DNA from: Bacillota bacterium
GTDB lineage: Bacteria > Bacillota_A > Clostridia > Lachnospirales > Lachnospiraceae
Direction of reading: 5' to 3'
Length of the DNA stretch: 64,000 bases
Assembly: GCA_023407175.1 (NCBI GenBank)
Contig: JAEYMU010000030.1
Coordinates: 124,001-188,000, forward strand
The position numbers and the translations under genes are program-made. This document shows positions 9,388 to 47,120 of this stretch, one piece after another (within the stretch, counting starts at the first letter, position 1; every line of letters begins with the position of its first letter). The notes beneath the pieces were generated by a model. The model was given only the letters and a program-made list of their open reading frames with translations. It searched no databases and had not been told where the DNA came from.

Positions 9388-10275
9388 ATGTTCGGGCTTT
9401 ATTTTGGTAATTACTTAGTAGAAAAGAATAAAATTTCTCGATCACAGTATGAAGATTTAATGGAAAAGCAGCAAAAAACCAGAGTTAAATTAGGGCTTAT
9501 TGCTGTCGCAGAGAAATTATTAACTGCAAAGCAGGCGGAAGAAATTAATGATATCCAGCGTAAATTAGACAAACGTTTTGGTGACATCGCAATTGAAAAG
9601 GGATATCTGCTTCCGGAGGAAGTAACTCACCTTCTTAACCTACAGGGTAATCCATATCTTCAATTTGTTCAAGTCATTACTGAGAATAACATTCTGTCGA
9701 TACATGAGATTGAAACATATCTGGAGGAGTATAAAAAGGATAATAATCTTAAGGATTCCGATATTGACGCATTAAAGTCCGGAGATATTGACCGCATCAT
9801 CCCTGTATTTGTCGAGACAGATATTCCTCTTTGCGGGGATTGTATCAGCTTGTTCCTTCGCAATGTTGTGCGTTTTATCAGTACCGATATGGTAATTAGC
9901 AAGATATATAAAACCGGGGAATATAAATTCGGCGCTTTGGCCTCTCAGAAAATGGTAGGCGATCACGAATTTTTTGTTGGCTTTGCATGTCAGGACAAAG
10001 AATTATTGGCAATTGCAAATCCATTTGCAAAAGAAGAATTTATCGAAGTAGATGAGGACGCATTTGACTCTGTGTGCGAATTCATCAATTGCACGAATGG
10101 CTTATATGCTTCCAAGCTAAGCCATGAGGATATACATATTGATATGACTCCTCCTCTATTTTATACGGATAAAAAAATATTATCTAAGGGAGACATTTAT
10201 GTTGTACCGATTAACATCGGCGGTAAACATACAGACCTGCTGGTAACGATAGACAGTCAGTTAGAAATAAATTAG
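9388..10275 (+). CDS. MshEN-like repeat protein with C-terminal CheX-type phosphatase domain
   Basis: A 295-residue cytosolic protein. Four repeats of about 24 residues with an exact 29-residue period start at residues 6, 35, 64 and 93. Each follows the pattern hydrophobic-G-x2-h-h-x-E/A-x2-h-h...h-x2-h-x2-Q, as in FGDIAIEKGYLLPEEV. This resembles the MshEN (GspE N-terminal) motif, which binds c-di-GMP in MshE-type ATPases. Residues from about 135 look like a CheX/CheC-class domain: the helix around DSVCEFINCTNGLYASKLS carries the family's ExxN phosphatase motif at Glu231 and Asn234, then GDIYVVPINIGG. The next gene is a lone CheY, the expected substrate. GGAG lies 7 bases before the ATG; an upstream in-frame ATG has no such site. 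Ligand and target are inferred. Confidence 0.65.
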   Translation: MFGLYFGNYLVEKNKISRSQYEDLMEKQQKTRVKLGLIAVAEKLLTAKQAEEINDIQRKLDKRFGDIAIEKGYLLPEEVTHLLNLQGNPYLQFVQVITENNILSIHEIETYLEEYKKDNNLKDSDIDALKSGDIDRIIPVFVETDIPLCGDCISLFLRNVVRFISTDMVISKIYKTGEYKFGALASQKMVGDHEFFVGFACQDKELLAIANPFAKEEFIEVDEDAFDSVCEFINCTNGLYASKLSHEDIHIDMTPPLFYTDKKILSKGDIYVVPINIGGKHTDLLVTIDSQLEIN

Positions 10276-10287
10276 GAGGAAAAAAGA

Positions 10288-10653
10288 ATGGCTAAAATTC
10301 TAATGGTTGACGATTCCAAGACATCGCGCAAGATTCTAAGAGGCATTTTGGAAGAAAATGGTCACGAAGTGATTGGAGAAGCTTCAAACGGGGAAGAAGG
10401 TATCGAAAAATATAAAGAGCTCCATCCCGACATCACAACAATGGATATTACCATGCCGGTCATGGACGGTCTTGAGGCCCTAAGACTCATTATGGATTAT
10501 GATAAAAATGCCAAGGTAGTTATGGTTACTGCCGCCGGTCAGAAGACAAAGATGGTTGATGCCGTCAAATACGGGGCTGCCGAATTTCTTGCCAAGCCCT
10601 TTGAGGCTGCCCAGATTATCGATATCATCAAAAAGGTATTAGCTACCTGGTAG
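10288..10653 (+). CDS. Stand-alone CheY-like response regulator
   Basis: A 121-residue single receiver domain with no output domain. It carries the acidic pair Asp8/Asp9, phospho-acceptor Asp53 (TTMDITMPVMDG), Thr81 (MVTAAG) and Lys103 (AKPF), so phosphorylation should be intact. It starts 12 bp after the CheX-like gene behind AGGAGG, so both are co-transcribed and its dephosphorylation by the neighbour is likely. No kinase, receptor or flagellar gene is nearby, so the upstream kinase must be encoded elsewhere. Confidence 0.92.
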   Translation: MAKILMVDDSKTSRKILRGILEENGHEVIGEASNGEEGIEKYKELHPDITTMDITMPVMDGLEALRLIMDYDKNAKVVMVTAAGQKTKMVDAVKYGAAEFLAKPFEAAQIIDIIKKVLATW

Positions 10654-10671
10654 GAATTAAGAATTTAAACA

Positions 10672-10720
10672 GAGCTGTAAGCAGTCTGCCCCGGGCAGCT
10701 TGTTTACAGCTCTTTGTGTT
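10672..10720 (+). terminator. Terminator after cheY-like gene
   Basis: GAGCTGTAA pairs with TTACAGCTC, with an inner CTGCC/GGCAG hairpin, and is followed by TTTGTGTTATG. It lies 20 bp past the stop codon. Confidence 0.8.
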
Positions 10721-13283: not shown

Positions 13284-15143
13284 CTATTTACCGAAGCGCT
13301 TTTTATCCAGGATATAATGGAAGGGCAGCACCACCGTTGATACATTCTTATGCTTGCTTAAATGCTGCATAAAGAAATAGGTGGTCTGATTATGCAGTAT
13401 CGTATCATACCAATGGGCCGTGACGAATTTAATCAAGATCACGGTGATATTTTCTCCATGCTGTAATTCCTTCTCCCTCTGCCACAAATAATCATCCAGG
13501 GGGTGAATGATATCACGGTAGGGTGTCTCGATAATCTTAAGTTCATAGGGGATTTGCAGCCTTTTCCAATGCTCCCGTAATTCCTGCGCATGCTCTGGAT
13601 GCCGGCATACGTGCAGGGCTGTTATATTCGTAGAGACGGAATTCGCATAATTGATTGCCTTTAAGAACGGTTTATTAATATCATGTAACAGTAGAATGCA
13701 CTGAGTAGAGGCTACCCCGCCCTGATTATAATACGGTTTATATTCCTCCAGCGTGAGCTCTTTCCCAATGCTTGAATAATGCTTGCTGATCGCGAACATC
13801 AAAAGCATGATTCCCGGAATTGCGATTGCAAGAATCCAGGCGCCGTCCATGAATTTCGTACTGAATACTATAATAGAAACCACCAGGGTCACTAATGCAC
13901 CAAAGCCATTAATCCAGCATTTATACTGCCAGCCCTTTTCCTTAATATTACGCCATTTTATAAACATACCATACTGTGCAATCGTAAAGGAAACAAATAC
14001 TCCCACCGAATATAACGGAATCAGCAAATGTGTCTGACTTTTAAAGCCGATAATCAGAAGTGAGGCTGCAATGAAAATGAATATAATCCCATTGGAGAAG
14101 CTAAGCTTCGTTCCCCTGGAAGAAAATTGTCTTGGGACATAGCCATCGTGGGCCAGAATAAAAAGCAGCTGCGGGAGGCCATTATACGCCGTGTTTGCCG
14201 CAAGGATCAGAATTAAAGAGGTAAACAGCTGTATCACATAATACATGAAGGTATGTCCAAACACAGCGGCAGCTACCTGTGATAATACTGTGTGTCCCTC
14301 CAGGGGAACAACCTGAAGCTTCATGGCAAGAATAGAGGTTCCGCCAAATATAAAAACAATGATACCGCCGAGCATATAAAGGACATGCTTCGCATTTTTG
14401 GTCGATGGAACCTGAAAGCTCGGAATGGAATTACTGACTGCCTCAACACCTGTCATTGCTGAGCAGCCTGAGGAAAAGGCCTTTAAAAGGAGTAAGATAC
14501 CAATACCGCTCAGCTCCTGCTTCGGAATCACTGCTTCGCTGTATTCAATCGGAGTCAGATCACCGGTAAAAAGCCGGAATAAGCCGCATACAATTAAAAT
14601 CGCCATCGAAACGATAAATAGATAGGTAGGCATGCCAAAGGTCTTGGAGGCTTCCCTCACACCCCTAAGATTACCGAGGGTGATAATAGCAACGCAAACA
14701 AGTGAAACCTCAATCCTGTAATCCTGCAGAGACGGAAATGCAGATGCCAGTGCTGCTGTAGAAGAGGATATACTAACCGCAACTGTCAAAATATAATCAA
14801 TGGTAAGAGCAGCTGCGGTTAGTAAGGAGGAGGTCTTCCCTATGTTTTCCTTCGCAACGGCATAAGCTCCGCCGCCGTTGGGATAATGATCTATAATTTG
14901 TGAATAAGATAATATCAAAATCAGCAATAAAAGCAAAATCGGTATTACAACAAACGGAACCGTATGAAATGCCAGAAGGCCCGCGGCCGGTATCAATATC
15001 AGTAAAATCTCCTCCACCGCGTATGCCACCGAGGAAACCGCATCACTCGCCATAATGGGAAGCCCCCATAATCTCGAAAGCTTTTCATGGTTTAGTTCAC
15101 TATTCTTCAAGGGTTTCCCCAAAATTATTTCTTTCATACTCAT
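13284..15143 (-). CDS. kimA: KimA-like potassium importer (APC superfamily), copy 1
   Basis: A 619-residue polytopic protein with about 12 membrane spans and a cytosolic C-terminal domain of about 150 residues. Its core motifs match Bacillus KimA (YdaO): IILGKPLKN, MASDAVSSVAYAVEEIL, SYSQIIDHYPNGGGAYAV, DYILTVAVSIS, KAFSSGCSAMTGVEAVSN, and in the tail HWYDTILHNQTTYF and VVLPFHYILDKK. KimA is a proton-coupled high-affinity K+ importer inhibited by c-di-AMP. Older annotation would say amino acid permease. I start at MSMKEII because GAGGAG lies 9 bases upstream. A near-identical paralogue lies just upstream, with its own terminator between them. Confidence 0.8.
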   Translation of the reverse strand: MSMKEIILGKPLKNSELNHEKLSRLWGLPIMASDAVSSVAYAVEEILLILIPAAGLLAFHTVPFVVIPILLLLLILILSYSQIIDHYPNGGGAYAVAKENIGKTSSLLTAAALTIDYILTVAVSISSSTAALASAFPSLQDYRIEVSLVCVAIITLGNLRGVREASKTFGMPTYLFIVSMAILIVCGLFRLFTGDLTPIEYSEAVIPKQELSGIGILLLLKAFSSGCSAMTGVEAVSNSIPSFQVPSTKNAKHVLYMLGGIIVFIFGGTSILAMKLQVVPLEGHTVLSQVAAAVFGHTFMYYVIQLFTSLILILAANTAYNGLPQLLFILAHDGYVPRQFSSRGTKLSFSNGIIFIFIAASLLIIGFKSQTHLLIPLYSVGVFVSFTIAQYGMFIKWRNIKEKGWQYKCWINGFGALVTLVVSIIVFSTKFMDGAWILAIAIPGIMLLMFAISKHYSSIGKELTLEEYKPYYNQGGVASTQCILLLHDINKPFLKAINYANSVSTNITALHVCRHPEHAQELREHWKRLQIPYELKIIETPYRDIIHPLDDYLWQREKELQHGENITVILIKFVTAHWYDTILHNQTTYFFMQHLSKHKNVSTVVLPFHYILDKKRFGK

Positions 15144-15186
15144 AAATTTATTCTCCTCTTTATGCCCGATACCGGCCCACTTCCTA

Positions 15187-15219
15187 TCATAAGTCATATC
15201 TCATCCAGCTGACTTATGA
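15187..15219 (-). other. Leader hairpin upstream of KimA copy 1
   Basis: TCATAAGTCA and TGACTTATGA form a perfect 10-bp inverted repeat with a 13-nt spacer, about 45 bp before the start codon. It could be an operator or an RNA stem; it has no T-tract. A weak TATAAT lies further upstream on the same strand. Confidence 0.4.
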
Positions 15220-15352: not shown

Positions 15353-17212
15353 TTATGGATTAAACCGTTTTTTATCCAGAATATAATGGAAGGGGAGCAC
15401 GACCGTCGATACATTCTTATGCTTGCTTAAATGCTGCATGAAAAAATAGGTGGTCTGGTTGTGCAAAATCCTGTCATACCAGTGAGCAGTAACGAATTTT
15501 ATCGTAATAACGGTAATATTCTCACCGTGCTTTAGTTCCTTTTCCCTCTGCCACAAATAATCATCCATCGGATGAATGATATCCCGGTAGGGGGTCTCAA
15601 TAATTTTTAACTCATAGGGAATTTTCAGTCTTTCCCACTGTTCCTGTAATTGCTTTGCATGCTCCGGATGGCGGCACACATGGAGAGCTGTTATATTATT
15701 GGAAATGGAATTTGCATAGTTGATCGCCTTTAAAAATGGTTTATTGATATCATGCACCAGCAGGATACACTGGGTGGTGGATACACCGCCCTGGTCATAA
15801 TAGGGCCTATATTCCTCCAGATAAAGCTCCTTGCCAATGTTGGAATAATGCTTCTTCACAGAAAGCATCAGCAGCATGATAACCGGGATTGCAATGGCAA
15901 GAATCCATGCCCCATCTATGAATTTAGTACTGAATACAATCACTAATACAACCAGGGTAACCAGCGCCCCAAAGCCGTTAATCCAGCATTTGTACTGCCA
16001 GCCCTTCTCCTTAATTGTCCTCCATTTTTTAAACATACCGTACTGTGCTATGGTAAAGGAAATAAATACGCCCACCGAATAAAGCGGAATTAAAGAATGA
16101 GTTTGACTCTTAAATGCTATAATCAGCAGGGAAGCCGCTATAAAAATAAATATAATACCGTTGGAAAAGCTAAGCTTTGTACCCCTGGAGGAAAACTGTC
16201 TCGGAACAAACCCATCATGTGCCAAAATGTATAAAAGCTGCGGCAGGCCGGTATACGCCGTATTAGCCGCAAGGATCAAAATCAAGGCAGTAAAGAGCTG
16301 AATTACATAGTACATAAAGGAATTTCCAAAAACCGCCGCAGATATCTGGGATAGTACCGTATGTCCCTCTACCGGAGCCACATGAAGATTCATTGCAAGT
16401 ATGGCTGTCCCTCCGAAGATGAATATAATGATACTGCCCAGCATATATAAAACATGCTTTGCATTCCTGGTGGAGGGTGCCTTAAAGCTTGGAATCGAAT
16501 CACTGACCGCCTCAACACCGGTCATTGCCGAACAGCCTGAAGAAAAAGCCCTCAGGACAATCAGGATACCGATTCCGCTCATTGTATCTGTTCCGATAAT
16601 AGGCTCCGCATACTCGATGGGGGTTAACGACCCGGTAACAAGCTTGAAGATGCCGCATACAATCAGTATCGCCATCGAGAATATAAAGATATAGGTCGGC
16701 AGGCCGAAAATCTTGGAGGATTCTCTGACTCCGCGCAGATTCATTAATGTTATGAAGGCCACACATACCAACGAAACCTCTATTTTATAATCCTTAAGAG
16801 CCGGAAATGCTGAAGCAAGTGCGGCTGTGGAGGAGGAAATACTAACCGCTACGGTAAGTATGTAATCAATGGTAAAAGCCGCAGCAGTTAAAACAGACAT
16901 GGTCATGCCTATATTTTCTTTCGCCACGGCATAAGCTCCGCCGCCGCCCGGATAGTGGTCGATGATCTGTGAATAGGATAAAATCAGCATTAGTAATAAT
17001 AACAGAATCGGTATTACAATAAAGGGCATCGTTCGAAATGCCAGCAGACCAATCGCCGGTATTAAGATCAGAAGTACCTCCTCAATCGCATATGCTACGG
17101 AAGATACCGCATCACTTGCCATAATTGGCAGACCCCAGAGTCTGGACAGCTTTTCATGGTTTAGCTCGCTATTTTTTAAAGGCTTCCCCAGCACAATATC
17201 TTTAATACTCAT
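15353..17212 (-). CDS. kimA: KimA-like potassium importer (APC superfamily), copy 2
   Basis: Also 619 residues from the chosen start (MSIKDIVLGKPLK, GAGGAG 9 bases upstream), colinear with copy 1 along its whole length and clearly a product of tandem duplication. Key motifs are the same (MASDAVSSVAYAIEEVL, YPGGGGAYAVAKENIG, KAFSSGCSAMTGVEAVSD written here as RAFSSGCSAMTGVEAVSD, HWYDRILHNQTTYF). Differences cluster in the linkers and some membrane faces, so both copies appear intact and may differ in affinity or expression. Predicted role: K+ uptake at the membrane. I saw no c-di-AMP (ydaO) riboswitch upstream of either copy. Confidence 0.8.
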   Translation of the reverse strand: MSIKDIVLGKPLKNSELNHEKLSRLWGLPIMASDAVSSVAYAIEEVLLILIPAIGLLAFRTMPFIVIPILLLLLMLILSYSQIIDHYPGGGGAYAVAKENIGMTMSVLTAAAFTIDYILTVAVSISSSTAALASAFPALKDYKIEVSLVCVAFITLMNLRGVRESSKIFGLPTYIFIFSMAILIVCGIFKLVTGSLTPIEYAEPIIGTDTMSGIGILIVLRAFSSGCSAMTGVEAVSDSIPSFKAPSTRNAKHVLYMLGSIIIFIFGGTAILAMNLHVAPVEGHTVLSQISAAVFGNSFMYYVIQLFTALILILAANTAYTGLPQLLYILAHDGFVPRQFSSRGTKLSFSNGIIFIFIAASLLIIAFKSQTHSLIPLYSVGVFISFTIAQYGMFKKWRTIKEKGWQYKCWINGFGALVTLVVLVIVFSTKFIDGAWILAIAIPVIMLLMLSVKKHYSNIGKELYLEEYRPYYDQGGVSTTQCILLVHDINKPFLKAINYANSISNNITALHVCRHPEHAKQLQEQWERLKIPYELKIIETPYRDIIHPMDDYLWQREKELKHGENITVITIKFVTAHWYDRILHNQTTYFFMQHLSKHKNVSTVVLPFHYILDKKRFNP

Positions 17213-17523
17213 AAAATTGTTCTCCTCACTCCCTAGCTGGAACACGCTCCGGTGTGCTGTCACATCGACTTTAGTTTTCCGTATTCCATATCTAATTCTT
17301 TGATCCAAAGAATGTGTATTCTTGATTAATAATCATTGCATCACATTTCAACATTATATACCCGCATGTATAAAGATTGTATAAATTTTTATGCCAAATG
17401 TATAAAGAACCTATAAAGATTTTTTGTAACAACCCCGCCGGTCCATTTGTTAAAAACAGTGGAAATATCTCTGGAAAAATCGTATAATATACCCATTATT
17501 ATTCTATTACTTGGGGGACACTT
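17213..17523. other. Divergent intergenic region
   Basis: No gene seen. On the minus strand, three TTTATACA direct repeats lie between about 17370 and 17412, next to a TTGGCA that could serve as -35 for KimA copy 2. The right end holds the promoter of the sugar isomerase gene. Confidence 0.5.
17460..17488 (+). promoter_or_regulatory. Possible promoter of the sugar isomerase-Nudix pair
   Basis: A consensus TATAAT at 17483-17488 with a poor -35 (TGGAAA) 17 bp upstream. It lies 36 bp before the start codon. Confidence 0.4.
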
Positions 17524-33404: not shown

Positions 33405-34985
33405 ATGAAGCATAAAGCAGTCATTACTGCACAACAGCTTAAATATATGAAAAACAGCAATATTGTGAAGGGTACCCTGATATTGACCCTGTCAGGGTTT
33501 ATTATCCGGTTCATTGGCTTTTTCTATCGTATCTTTTTGTCCAATACGATGGGTGCGGAGCTGATGGGCATCTATCAGCTGGTCTTTCCTGTATATGGTA
33601 TCTGTTTTACCATCTATGCCAGCGGTATACAGACCTCTATCTCAAGGCTTGTTGCCGGTGAGATCGGAAAGCGCAATCCAAAAAATGTCTCCCGTATTTT
33701 AGGTGTCGGTATGGTGCTTTCCGTTCTCCTGGCTGTTGCTATGTCCGCCCTGATCTATTTTTATGCTGATTTTATTGCCTGGCGTATTCTATTGGAGGAG
33801 CGCTGTGCCTCCTCACTTAAGATTCTTGCAGTTGCATTTCCCTTCTGCGGAGTAACCGCCTGCATCAACGGCTATTATTACGGGCTCAAAAAAGCCGGGG
33901 TTCCGGCTGCAACCCAGCTTTTGGAACAGGTAGTCCGGGTTATCGCAGTCTATTTTATCGCCCTGTATTTCGGCAATGGAGAATTGAAGGTTACCTGTGA
34001 GATGGCAGTGATTGGTCTTGTGGCAGGCGAGATTGCCTCCTGCCTGTATAACAGCGCAGCATTGTTTCACGAGAAATCACCCTCCAGACAGCTAATCGTG
34101 GATATGGACCCGAATGCCAAAAAAAGCAGGCCCAAGCTGATTATCAAGAATCTTCTGGTATTAAGCGTTCCCCTGTCCGCCAACCGTTTGCTGTTAAGCA
34201 TTCTTCACAGCATTGAGGCTGTACTCATCCCGTCAATGCTCCGGCGCTCAGGCCTAAGCAGCCAGGATTCCCTGGTAGTGTATGGTGTCTTAAATGGAAT
34301 GTCTATTCCTTTTATTATGTTTCCTACTGCACTGATTAATGCATTGGCCGTCCTTTTACTTCCGACGATTTCTGAAGCACAGGCAATCAATAATGATAAG
34401 CTGATCGGAAAAACCACTGCCATATCCATTAAGTACAGCCTGATTGTCGGAATTGTAAGCACCGGTATCTTTGTTGCCTTTGGACGTGATCTTGGAATTT
34501 CAGTATTCCATAACGAATCAGCCGGTGAATATCTGATGATACTGGCCTGGCTCTGCCCCTTCTTCTATCTGACCACCACCTTGGGCAGTGTTATCAATGG
34601 GCTTGGCAAGGCACATGTCACCTTCATTAACTCGATCATTGCCAGTCTGTTGAAGATATTATTTATTGTTATCTTAATTCCCTACCGCGGAATTAATGGA
34701 TATCTTATTTCCTTATTGATCGGACAGCTCATCGTGACCGGACTTGATACCCTTGCAGTTATAAAAAATGTTCATTTTTCCCTGGATAACATCAACTCTA
34801 TCCTTAAGCCGGGACTTATCACTTTGCTTGGCTGTATTATCATCCGGGAGGGCTATCAGTATACAAAAAAAATGACACATATCAATGAAGTAGTATATTT
34901 ACTGGGCTTCTGCTTCCTTTTATGCGTCATTTGCACTATTCTTTTGGTTATAACCGGTGCTGTTTCTAAAAAGGATTTTAAATAA
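33405..34985 (+). CDS. SpoVB/MurJ-type flippase (MOP superfamily)
   Basis: A 526-residue polytopic protein with about 14 membrane spans. The start KGTLILTLSGFIIRFIGFFYRI, then NTMGAELMGIYQLVFPVYG and SRLVAGEIGKRN, match the SpoVB/YkvU/MurJ-like polysaccharide transporters that flip lipid-linked precursors. Spore cortex or cell-wall precursor transport is likely, but the exact substrate cannot be told. The ribosome binding site AAGG is modest. Two small hairpins (AAGCTCCC/GGGAAGCT and TTTGCC/GGCAAA) lie just upstream. Its end overlaps the convergent GGDEF gene by 8 bases. Confidence 0.88.
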   Translation: MKHKAVITAQQLKYMKNSNIVKGTLILTLSGFIIRFIGFFYRIFLSNTMGAELMGIYQLVFPVYGICFTIYASGIQTSISRLVAGEIGKRNPKNVSRILGVGMVLSVLLAVAMSALIYFYADFIAWRILLEERCASSLKILAVAFPFCGVTACINGYYYGLKKAGVPAATQLLEQVVRVIAVYFIALYFGNGELKVTCEMAVIGLVAGEIASCLYNSAALFHEKSPSRQLIVDMDPNAKKSRPKLIIKNLLVLSVPLSANRLLLSILHSIEAVLIPSMLRRSGLSSQDSLVVYGVLNGMSIPFIMFPTALINALAVLLLPTISEAQAINNDKLIGKTTAISIKYSLIVGIVSTGIFVAFGRDLGISVFHNESAGEYLMILAWLCPFFYLTTTLGSVINGLGKAHVTFINSIIASLLKILFIVILIPYRGINGYLISLLIGQLIVTGLDTLAVIKNVHFSLDNINSILKPGLITLLGCIIIREGYQYTKKMTHINEVVYLLGFCFLLCVICTILLVITGAVSKKDFK

Positions 34986-36384
34986 CCGGAGAGCTAAGGA
35001 GATAGTTGTTCTTTCCCTGCTCCTTAACACGATAGAGGGCCTGATCCGCCTGCTCCATCAGCTGCTCGTAACGCAAGCCGGAGGCAGGATAGAGAGCAAC
35101 ACCGATGCTGGCGGAAATCTTGATCGGGCTGTTATTACACAGATAGGTGGTGTCCAGCTTATCCTTTAAAAGGGTTGCCTTCTCTTCAACCTCGTCATCA
35201 TTTTCAATATTACCGGCAAAGACAATAAATTCATCACCGCCGACACGCCCGATAATCTCACCCTCGGAGAAAACCTCCTTGACACTGCCAATGACATAGA
35301 CCAGTACTTTGTCACCAACCAGATGTCCGTAATTATCATTAATGCTCTTGAAATCATCAAAATCCACCAGCATCAGCATATGTCTGCCTTTTTTATTACC
35401 GGTGATATATTTTTCAATTTTTTTAATTGTTACTTCCTTGTTGTAGACACCTGTTAACGGATCTCTCGTCGCCTTATATTCCAGTGCTTCCAGTTCTTTT
35501 TTCTGGGAGTCTACATTGACCATCTTGCCGATGACGCGAAAGGGATGCTTATTATCATCATAAATGGTTTTACCCATGAGCTGACACCAGATGAATTCAC
35601 CCAGCCGGTTTTTAATCCGGTACTCCGCTTCAATGAATCTTCTTCCCTCCGCCAAATGGTGGCAAAATTCCAGATAGACACCCCAGTCATCCGGATGAAT
35701 ACGATCCTTCAATATCACATGGTTTTCCTTGAAACTGGATATCACCGGGTCCATTCCGAATAAATCCTGGTATTTGTTCGTATATTTCATCTCATCCAAA
35801 GGAATATGGTATTCAAACAAAACATCGTTGAAGAGCTCAGTTGCGATACGGTAACGTTCTCCCTCCAGCAGAATAATGTTTTGCATCCGCTTCTGTTCAC
35901 TGATATCAACAAATACCACCGACAGCGTATGCTTGCCGTCCTTGCTGACCGAGCTGTTGCCGTTCATCAGCATATACAGTATAGTGCCGTCCTTAGTAAC
36001 CATCTGTACCTCATAGCGAATGGTATCATTCCCCAGCTGATCTTTGATATCCTGTGTAAAATCTGTATTTGATTGTTCGATAAAATCCAGCAGTGAGCTC
36101 TTGTTCTGCTCTCTCGTTTCATTTTTATCATAGCCTAAGATATCAAAGAAGCCCTGACTGGCATATAATATCCTGCAATTGTCCTCCAGTGTAAAATGTA
36201 CTAAGCCTGCCCGGATACTGTTTGTAATTTTTTTGAGTTCTGCTGCCGCACGGGTAACTTTTTTCTCGTTTTCCAGGCGCAGTAACAAAATAATAACTAC
36301 GATAATAATACATATACTTATTATGATAATTACTAACGACAGCAAAACAGCAGGCTCATTTAATATGCTGCCAATCCTTTTCAT
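34978..36384 (-). CDS. PAS-PAS-GGDEF diguanylate cyclase
   Basis: A 468-residue membrane-bound enzyme that should make c-di-GMP. One N-terminal span is at about residues 13-35 (LLSLVIIIISICIIIVVIIL). Two PAS domains follow (ILYASQGFFDILGYDKNE, and YTNKYQDLFGMDP with a PAC end). The GGDEF domain runs from about 305: DPLTGVYNKE, LVDFDDFKSIND and an intact GGDEF signature (GRVGGDEFIVF). The usual RxxD inhibitory site upstream of the signature is absent, so product inhibition may be weak. Signal unknown. Single gene, tail to tail with the flippase. Confidence 0.92.
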   Translation of the reverse strand: MKRIGSILNEPAVLLSLVIIIISICIIIVVIILLLRLENEKKVTRAAAELKKITNSIRAGLVHFTLEDNCRILYASQGFFDILGYDKNETREQNKSSLLDFIEQSNTDFTQDIKDQLGNDTIRYEVQMVTKDGTILYMLMNGNSSVSKDGKHTLSVVFVDISEQKRMQNIILLEGERYRIATELFNDVLFEYHIPLDEMKYTNKYQDLFGMDPVISSFKENHVILKDRIHPDDWGVYLEFCHHLAEGRRFIEAEYRIKNRLGEFIWCQLMGKTIYDDNKHPFRVIGKMVNVDSQKKELEALEYKATRDPLTGVYNKEVTIKKIEKYITGNKKGRHMLMLVDFDDFKSINDNYGHLVGDKVLVYVIGSVKEVFSEGEIIGRVGGDEFIVFAGNIENDDEVEEKATLLKDKLDTTYLCNNSPIKISASIGVALYPASGLRYEQLMEQADQALYRVKEQGKNNYLLSSPVI

Positions 36385-45563: not shown

Positions 45564-47120
45564 TTATATCTGGCTTATATGCTCCTCCTGATTCTTTAAA
45601 AACATAATTGCTTTTTCTCTGGGTACCGGCTTACTGTATAAATAGCCCTGTGCCATATCACAATTTGCTTCCTTAAGAAAGATTTCCTGATCAAAGCTTT
45701 CCACACCCTCAGCAATCACATACAAATCAAGATTTCTGGCAAGATTAATGATGGTTTGAATAATTTTCTGGTCACACTGGTCCTCCATAACCGTATCCAG
45801 AAAGCTTTTGTCTATCTTTAAATTGCTTACCGGAAGCCGTTTCAAATAGTTCATCGAGGAATAGCCTGTTCCAAAGTCATCCAATGAAAAGTTCACACCT
45901 ATTTTTCTCAATTCCTGTATGGTAGTAATCGTATAATCAATATCATCCAGCGCTATGCTTTCCGTTATCTCAAGCTCAAGCCTGCCCGGATTAATTCCGG
46001 TCTCTTCAATTACATCATAGACCTGTCTGACAAAATCGCGATCCTTAAACTGTCTTGCAGAAAGATTGACCGCCATGGTTACGTCCGGATAATCCTCTGA
46101 CCATTGCTTTAGCTGATGACATGCCGTTCTTAAAACCCAAATACCGATCGGCACAATCAAGCCTGTTTCTTCTGCCACATAGATAAATTCGTCCGGGTAA
46201 ACGAGTCCTTTGGTTGGATGGTTCCAGCGGATCAGCGCCTCAAAGCCCACTACCTTTTTGGATTCCAAATTCATCTGTGCCTGATAAAACAGAACAAACT
46301 CATTACGCTCCAGTGCCTTTCGAAGCTCTGACTGCGTTTCAATCTTCTCGGTCAGCTTCTGGTTAAAGGCATATTCAAAATACACATGGGTATTCTTTCC
46401 GTTTGCTTTCGCCACATACATGGCTGAATCAACATTTTTTATTAAGGACTGGGATGTTCTGCCGTCCTTCGGTGCAAAGGCCACTCCAATGCTGACAGTT
46501 ACAAAATATTCCTTTGTTGATAAAATAAATGGGTAGCTGAATACATTCTTTATTTTTCTGATCTTATCCTCAAAGATAGCCATATCCTTAAGATTCTGGG
46601 ACAGCACGATAAATTCATCTCCGCCGATTCTCGCAAGATAATCATTCTCGTCCATCGCCTGCTTCAAACGGTAGGTTACATCAATCAACAGCTCATCGCC
46701 ATAGGAATGCCCCAGCGTATCATTGATATTCTTGAAATTATCAATATCAATATCCATGATTGCAATGATTTCCTCGCTGCGAAGCGTAATCATGATATTA
46801 TCCAGCATCTCCGTAAAGGCCGCACGATTCGGCAGCTCAGTCAGATAATCTGTATAAGCCAGCTTTTTCATGCTTTCTTTATTTCTATTCAACTCTTCAT
46901 ACTTGGCTGTAAGTTCGTTAAAGGAGTTTACCTGGGCAGTATAAGTCCCCTCCAGTTCCTTGCAGTGCTCGGAAAGCTTTTGATTCTCTTCTTTTGCAAG
47001 TTTACCGGTCCGGCTGGCTGCTCGGTATCTGACCGAATAATACACCAGCAGCAATATTATAATTACCATTGCCACGATAGCGACAATTCCAACTATCCGG
47101 TCAATCACAAAATATCCCAT
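45564..47120 (-). CDS. GGDEF-EAL dual-domain c-di-GMP enzyme
   Basis: A 518-residue protein: a single N-terminal span (about 8-28), a coiled coil to about 85, then GGDEF ([28 protein letters not shown], intact IGGDEFIVL) and EAL ([55 protein letters not shown]). Both sites look intact, so it may make and break c-di-GMP. No sensor domain is visible beyond the coiled coil. It starts 35 bp after nfnB behind GGAGG. Confidence 0.94.

Follow-up and report, generated by a model that had tools for sequence, protein, structure and literature searches.

Swimming is known to be controlled by the second messenger cyclic dimeric GMP (c-di-GMP) mostly at the flagellar motor itself or through gene expression, and the YcgR-type PilZ brake is one such control of the flagellum. 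Phosphatases of the CheX class belong to the chemotaxis side of the pathway: in Borrelia, CheX dephosphorylates phosphorylated CheY (PMC4013479; here and below, such accessions stand for excerpts of the papers), and the Borrelia (CheX-CheY complex, 3hzh) and Thermotoga (1squ, 1xko) proteins are chains of ~150-160 residues composed of CheX alone. The MshEN domain of MshE and PilF (GSPII N-terminal subdomain; 5htl, 8pdk) consists of 24-residue motifs with conserved Gly and Gln, separated by 5-residue spacers. A single sentence of Wang et al (2016) lists CheA and CheX among the proteins associated with MshEN (PMC5013675). Here, we describe a gene pair from a 64,000-nucleotide stretch of contig JAEYMU010000030.1 (hereafter the window), in which a protein joining four MshEN-like repeats to a CheX domain is encoded directly upstream of a single-domain CheY. 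We propose, with a probability of roughly one in two and from sequence comparison, that the pair is a c-di-GMP-gated phosphatase for a dedicated second CheY, i.e. a side-branch of chemotaxis.

The two open reading frames lie at 9388-10275 and 10288-10653, as given in the original prediction, with start and stop codons in place. The CheX gene and CheY form a tight unit, since the AGGAGG of CheY shares bases with the stop codon of the gene before it. The features of the pair are as follows:

9388..10275, + strand: MshEN-repeat/CheX gene, 295 residues (ATG at 9388, stop codon at 10273-10275)
9400..9471, + strand: MshEN-like repeat 1, residues 5-28, which starts with Tyr (from repeat and contact analysis)
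9487..9558, + strand: MshEN-like repeat 2, residues 34-57, K34 L35 G36 ... A50 ... N54 .. Q57
9574..9645, + strand: MshEN-like repeat 3, residues 63-86, R63 F64 G65 ... V79 ... L83 .. Q86, the best motif
9661..9732, + strand: MshEN-like repeat 4, residues 92-115, degenerate (V94 for Gly, Y115 for Gln)
9817..10257, + strand: CheX phosphatase domain, about residues 144-290
10078..10089, + strand: ExxN catalytic motif, E231-F-I-N234, from alignment with CheX structures
10274..10279, + strand: AGGAGG, which probably serves CheY as ribosome-binding site
10288..10653, + strand: single-domain CheY gene, 121 residues (ATG at 10288, stop codon ending at 10653)
10671..10713, + strand: inverted repeat AGAGCTGTAA...TTACAGCTCT followed by T-rich DNA, a possible terminator of the two-gene unit

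The inner stem of the inverted repeat (10686-10698) was reported by a terminator-region scan, which returned 2 sites over the stretch against 1.2 expected. No other chemotaxis family was found among the 22 window proteins scanned, a subset of the open reading frames, in line with what had been predicted.

The N-terminus of the CheX protein is made of four 24-residue units with 5-residue spacers, i.e. a period of 29. The summed pairwise BLOSUM62 score of the repeats is 103, versus −119 ± 26 when residues 1-120 are shuffled (none of 20,000 shuffles scoring as high), and lag 29 alone scores positive among lags 20-39. The NCBIfam model NF053729, a c-di-GMP motif related to MshE with a cut-off of 38 bits, matches the whole protein at 45.0 bits and residues 1-118 alone at 49.1 bits. 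It scored above cut-off in 8 of the 9 relatives scanned, chosen from both gene orders and from the fusions described below (39.2 bits in L061 to 90.1 bits in L101), and was absent among the matches listed for L105. A profile built from 59 N-termini matched, among PDB chains, PilF (6f8l, E 7.9e-11), MshE (5htl, E 7.7e-7, profile positions 29-87 on chain residues 4-62) and, more weakly, PilB. In the AlphaFold2 model of the 295-residue protein (mean pLDDT, the predicted local distance difference test, 94.3; pTM, the predicted template modelling score, 0.85), the best fold matches of the repeats are c-di-GMP-bound MshE and PilF, and repeats 2 and 3 superpose on the known ligand-binding pair, repeat 2 on motif I and repeat 3 on motif II. 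The unit and spacer lengths and the conserved Gly and Gln are common to MshE, PilF and the window protein, and the arrangement of these two repeats appears to be so too; the window protein differs in that it strings four half-motifs together and lacks both the C-terminal subdomain and the ATPase. Of the predicted resemblance to the MshEN motif, the four repeats and their kinship with MshEN stood, but the relaxed form of the published motif is matched by repeat 3 alone, because the other three have each lost motif residues (repeat 1 the Arg, Lys or Leu at the first position, repeat 2 two leucines, repeat 4 the Gly and the Gln).

The C-terminal domain, which had been assigned to CheX with an intact ExxN motif, matches PF13690 at 37.7 bits (cut-off 27, passed in 2 of 7 relatives scanned) and T. 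maritima CheX by phmmer (1squ/1xko, E about 1e-5), and it was recognised as CheX in a fold test. E231 and N234, numbered correctly on the 295-residue protein, align with the Glu and Asn of ELGN in T. maritima CheX. The window protein therefore has in common with the Borrelia and Thermotoga proteins the CheX fold and the ExxN pair, to which it adds the four N-terminal half-motifs. The Glu and Asn are kept in all 62 aligned rows of the main clade, the alignment, also used for the contact analysis, holding 62 of 73 sequences after 10 short ones and one with an in-frame stop were removed. Profile searches thus matched both MshEN and CheX, the outcome on which the original prediction had staked itself, and both assignments are backed by confident structure models. 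Note that a few copies of the CheX gene carry in-frame stops and are possible pseudogenes (L034 and L082, from the same genome, L122 and L126).

The downstream protein matches Response_reg at 102.8 bits and contains all the key residues expected of a lone CheY (D8, D9, D53, T81 and K103). The two acidic residues, D53 and K103 are present in 67 of 67 aligned rows, and T81 in 65. We found a separate CheY after FliY in the flagellar operons of three relatives (G004, G019 and G020, with loci titled Mobilitalea sibirica, Herbinix hemicellulosilytica and Mobilisporobacter senegalensis; stretches L113-L116). Other open reading frames of these operons were read by eye as CheB, CheA, CheW, CheC and CheD, the CheY and CheB receivers being the only ones matched by model. 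On a tree of 48 chosen receiver sequences, including 22 of the 67 rows of pair CheYs, the flagellar-operon CheYs form one group (support 99/91) apart from the pair CheYs. Because three relatives carry this separate CheY, apart on the tree, the window CheY is probably a second one, distinct from that of the flagellar operon, and would be an extra copy outside that operon, unlike the Borrelia and Thermotoga case.

The two genes stay together across relatives, whereas the genes around them vary. A scan of 84,980 species genomes gave 72 loci. CheY lies downstream in 68 of them, encoded on the same strand, and the match stops at a contig end in the remaining four. Cultured isolates such as Kineothrix alysoides and Mobilitalea sibirica are among the carriers of the pair. 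A further 33 loci, partly from the same genomes, have an adjacent CheY in 32 (27 downstream, 5 upstream). Repeat-CheX copies for which no adjacent CheY was found occur in L112 and L118, and their genomes (G122, G214) hold another copy. Beyond CheY, the neighbours are variable over the 92 loci compared, some of them from the same genome. A gene read by eye as argS lies next upstream, on the other strand, in 38 of these loci, and genes read as polC and ispG recur in 9 and 8; we rejected a larger operon, since the neighbours vary and these recurring genes look like local synteny.

The two proteins also occur as a single chain. P0079 and P0115 are CheX-CheY fusions, and 9 of the 91 family genomes carrying the architecture (see below) have open frames of 437-476 residues; all four of these that were read hold a receiver by our own model, three of them also by Pfam. 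The fused state is scattered on the receiver tree, with a minimum of 5 changes, 2 of them forced by well-supported branches, so that the change between fused and split forms took place at least twice, whether fusions were gained or lost. In a sister group (L093-L104, L109-L111), DxxN replaces ExxN in 15 of 15 members, and CheY lies upstream of CheX in 14. CheY is also upstream in L124, L126 and L128, in which the Glu of ExxN is kept. Seven of the 15 sister-group loci have a response regulator of ~225 residues near the CheX gene on the opposite strand (L094:530-1219, −; similar in L093, L095, L098, L101, L104 and L109), and the one tested is a receiver joined to Trans_reg_C.

We then compared genomes from the family to which Mobilitalea sibirica belongs and which we take to be the Lachnospiraceae. 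In a sample of 299 genomes, 94 gave a match and 91 have the architecture, three with the CheX half only being dropped (G114, G149, G277) and two partial matches kept (G052, G208). FliM is present in 84 of these 91 genomes versus 69 of the 208 others (Fisher p 3e-23). Among the seven architecture-bearing genomes in which FliM was not matched, flagellin was matched in three and CheA in four; G076, G103 and G154 have CheA and no flagellin match, and in G105 none of the three was matched. These absences are weak evidence because genome completeness was not given. In the genomes of 37 of the 72 loci, CheA was found in all 37 and FliM in 36. A class-level sample of 291 genomes, family members included, gave full-length matches with E < 1e-50 in 13, the other class matches listed being weak and mostly to frames of ~560-615 residues or of CheX length; two of the former were read and are PilB-like by eye. 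The pair is a conserved feature of this family, whose members are anaerobes and mostly flagellated.

Does the repeat block bind c-di-GMP? Among the three repeat pairs tested, the ligand-contact positions are most conserved in repeats 2 and 3, where the first (Arg, Lys or Leu), third (Gly) and last (Gln) motif positions are all satisfied (K34, G36, Q57 and R63, G65, Q86), both Gly and both Gln being present in 61 of 61 aligned rows. Published work on PilF provides rules to read these residues: in GSPII-B, a Lys at the first position supports binding at 6 nM, a single Gln to Glu change weakens binding and both abolish it, and the consensus was widened to (R/K/L)LG (PMC11731258); in GSPII-A, the Gly at the third position matters and Ile is tolerated for Leu (PMC12002112). 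By these rules, K34, G36, Q57, R63, G65, L83 and Q86 are favourable and A50 and N54 are not. These last two residues count against binding, as 2 of the 12 ligand contacts are altered where A50 and N54 replace guanine-stacking leucines. One leucine triad is hydrophobic (L35, V79, L83), and the other is A50, N54 and F64. No MshEN model was listed among the Pfam matches of the protein at E up to 10. Since neither the leucine triad nor the Pfam test is passed, we call the repeats a divergent relative of MshEN, probably working like it, rather than a canonical member. The departure from MshE and PilF is shared by the relatives: position 50 is Ala or Val, and N54 is near-fixed in the main clade (60 of 61), whereas sister-group proteins most often have His at this position (9 of 15) and 4 have Val or Leu. 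We hold it moderately likely, in view of the two altered contacts, that the repeat block binds c-di-GMP.

The original interpretation, in which c-di-GMP level is linked to CheY dephosphorylation, is supported in part. Under the mechanism that we propose, CheA would presumably phosphorylate the partner CheY, and the CheX domain would remove the phosphate from its aspartate. The four MshEN half-motifs would bind c-di-GMP, chiefly via repeats 2 and 3, and binding would alter the efficiency of the CheX domain or its access to the substrate, so that c-di-GMP would set the lifetime of the phosphate on the partner CheY, the output being either motor bias or the phosphate available to the main CheY. 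We slightly prefer the c-di-GMP-bound form as the active phosphatase. The fused forms fit this mechanism best, since sensor, phosphatase and substrate share one chain. Somewhat more tentatively, we picture the gated phosphatase as present across flagellated Lachnospiraceae, either as neighbouring genes, in one order or the other, or as a fusion, with an asymmetric site in which a normal guanine half-site (repeat 3) would be combined with an altered, conserved half-site (repeat 2, carrying Asn, replaced by His in most of the sister group); the altered half-site could reflect a tuned affinity or a preference for a different cyclic dinucleotide.

The strongest contender, which we nevertheless hold to be unlikely, is that the repeats are a degenerate relic of MshEN serving as a protein-binding or dimer scaffold, with CheX acting as a constitutive CheY phosphatase and c-di-GMP uninvolved. 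The loss of motif residues from repeats 1 and 4 in the main clade and the A50 and N54 of repeat 2, where leucines are expected, would suit such a scaffold, as would the precedent of PilF GSPII-A, which has the MshEN fold without binding (PMC12002112), and the sister-group members L098 and L099, which are without RLG triplets in repeats 2 and 3. A scaffold would, however, leave unaccounted for the conservation of the contact positions in repeats 2 and 3 above the other pairs, the invariant Gln and Gly residues, and the score of 90.1 bits reached by the sister-group L101 on the c-di-GMP motif model. L098 and L099 are related to each other, and their triplets are replaced by S-L-D / T-M-A and E-F-V / E-F-T; in the genome of L098 (G208), flagellin was matched, and FliM and CheA were not.

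Improbable in our view is a c-di-GMP-dependent adaptor or brake at the flagellar switch, in which CheY, in trans or in cis, would dock MshEN-CheX on FliM, the phosphatase activity being secondary or lost: the ExxN kept in 62 of 62 main-clade rows points to catalysis, and one relative already encodes a YcgR-like protein (PilZNR-PilZ, L114:6216-6974) within its flagellar operon. An output unrelated to flagella (through type IV pili, gene control or turnover of c-di-GMP itself) is more doubtful still, since, even though the window pair does not adjoin flagellar genes and G076, G103, G154 and G105 show the incomplete sets given above, FliM accompanies the architecture in 84 of 91 genomes and flagellin is found in three of the other seven.

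A c-di-GMP-gated phosphatase would differ from most controls described so far. The YcgR-type brake acts on the motor directly, whereas the window pair, in which no PilZ match was found in either protein at E up to 10, would act on the CheY phosphate. In Caulobacter, the Cle proteins tie c-di-GMP to motor control via a CheY-like protein that binds it by an Arg-rich C-terminal extension (PMC5677366); the 121-residue window CheY ends without such a tail. The claim that no described system has this layout held in part: the MshEN-CheX association had already been named, in an excerpt that mentions neither a partner CheY nor a function (PMC5013675), and no functional study of an MshEN-CheX protein was found in the literature searched, subscription papers being mostly outside the search. 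A review of c-di-GMP in Borrelia considers that a c-di-GMP receptor may act via CheX or CheY3 (PMC4013479). Should the proposal be right, the second messenger would govern how long the chemotaxis signal lasts, a direct control point on a response regulator that ties a lifestyle signal directly to swimming. With sensor and phosphatase in one chain, the link between c-di-GMP and CheX can be tested with two purified proteins, and a function would be given to a protein named hypothetical or simply ‘chemotaxis protein CheX’ in databases.

The two c-di-GMP enzymes predicted elsewhere in the window are real, domain models having matched both proteins:

34978-36384, − strand: PAS-PAS-GGDEF protein
45564-47120, − strand: GGDEF-EAL protein

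No evidence ties them to the pair. EAL is found in all 91 family genomes that have the architecture and in 141 of the 208 that lack it, but also in 42 of 43 genomes that have the common FliM type (a set leaving out 27 genomes with a FliM match weaker than ~1e-45, our own cut) and lack the architecture, with an equal median count (7; maximum scored 9). Since flagellated members of the family have EAL just as often when the architecture is missing, these enzymes say little, and we rejected them as specific evidence. Control by sigma-D was unsupported: with a consensus sequence, 10 of 64 upstream regions match (≤ 2 mismatches) versus 8.2 expected from mononucleotide shuffles. No riboswitch was found in the whole window at Rfam gathering thresholds, the scan returning one tRNA only. 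Two adjacent, very similar frames at 13284-15197 (−, 637 residues) and 15353-17308 (−, 651 residues) look, by eye, like a tandem-duplicated membrane transporter.
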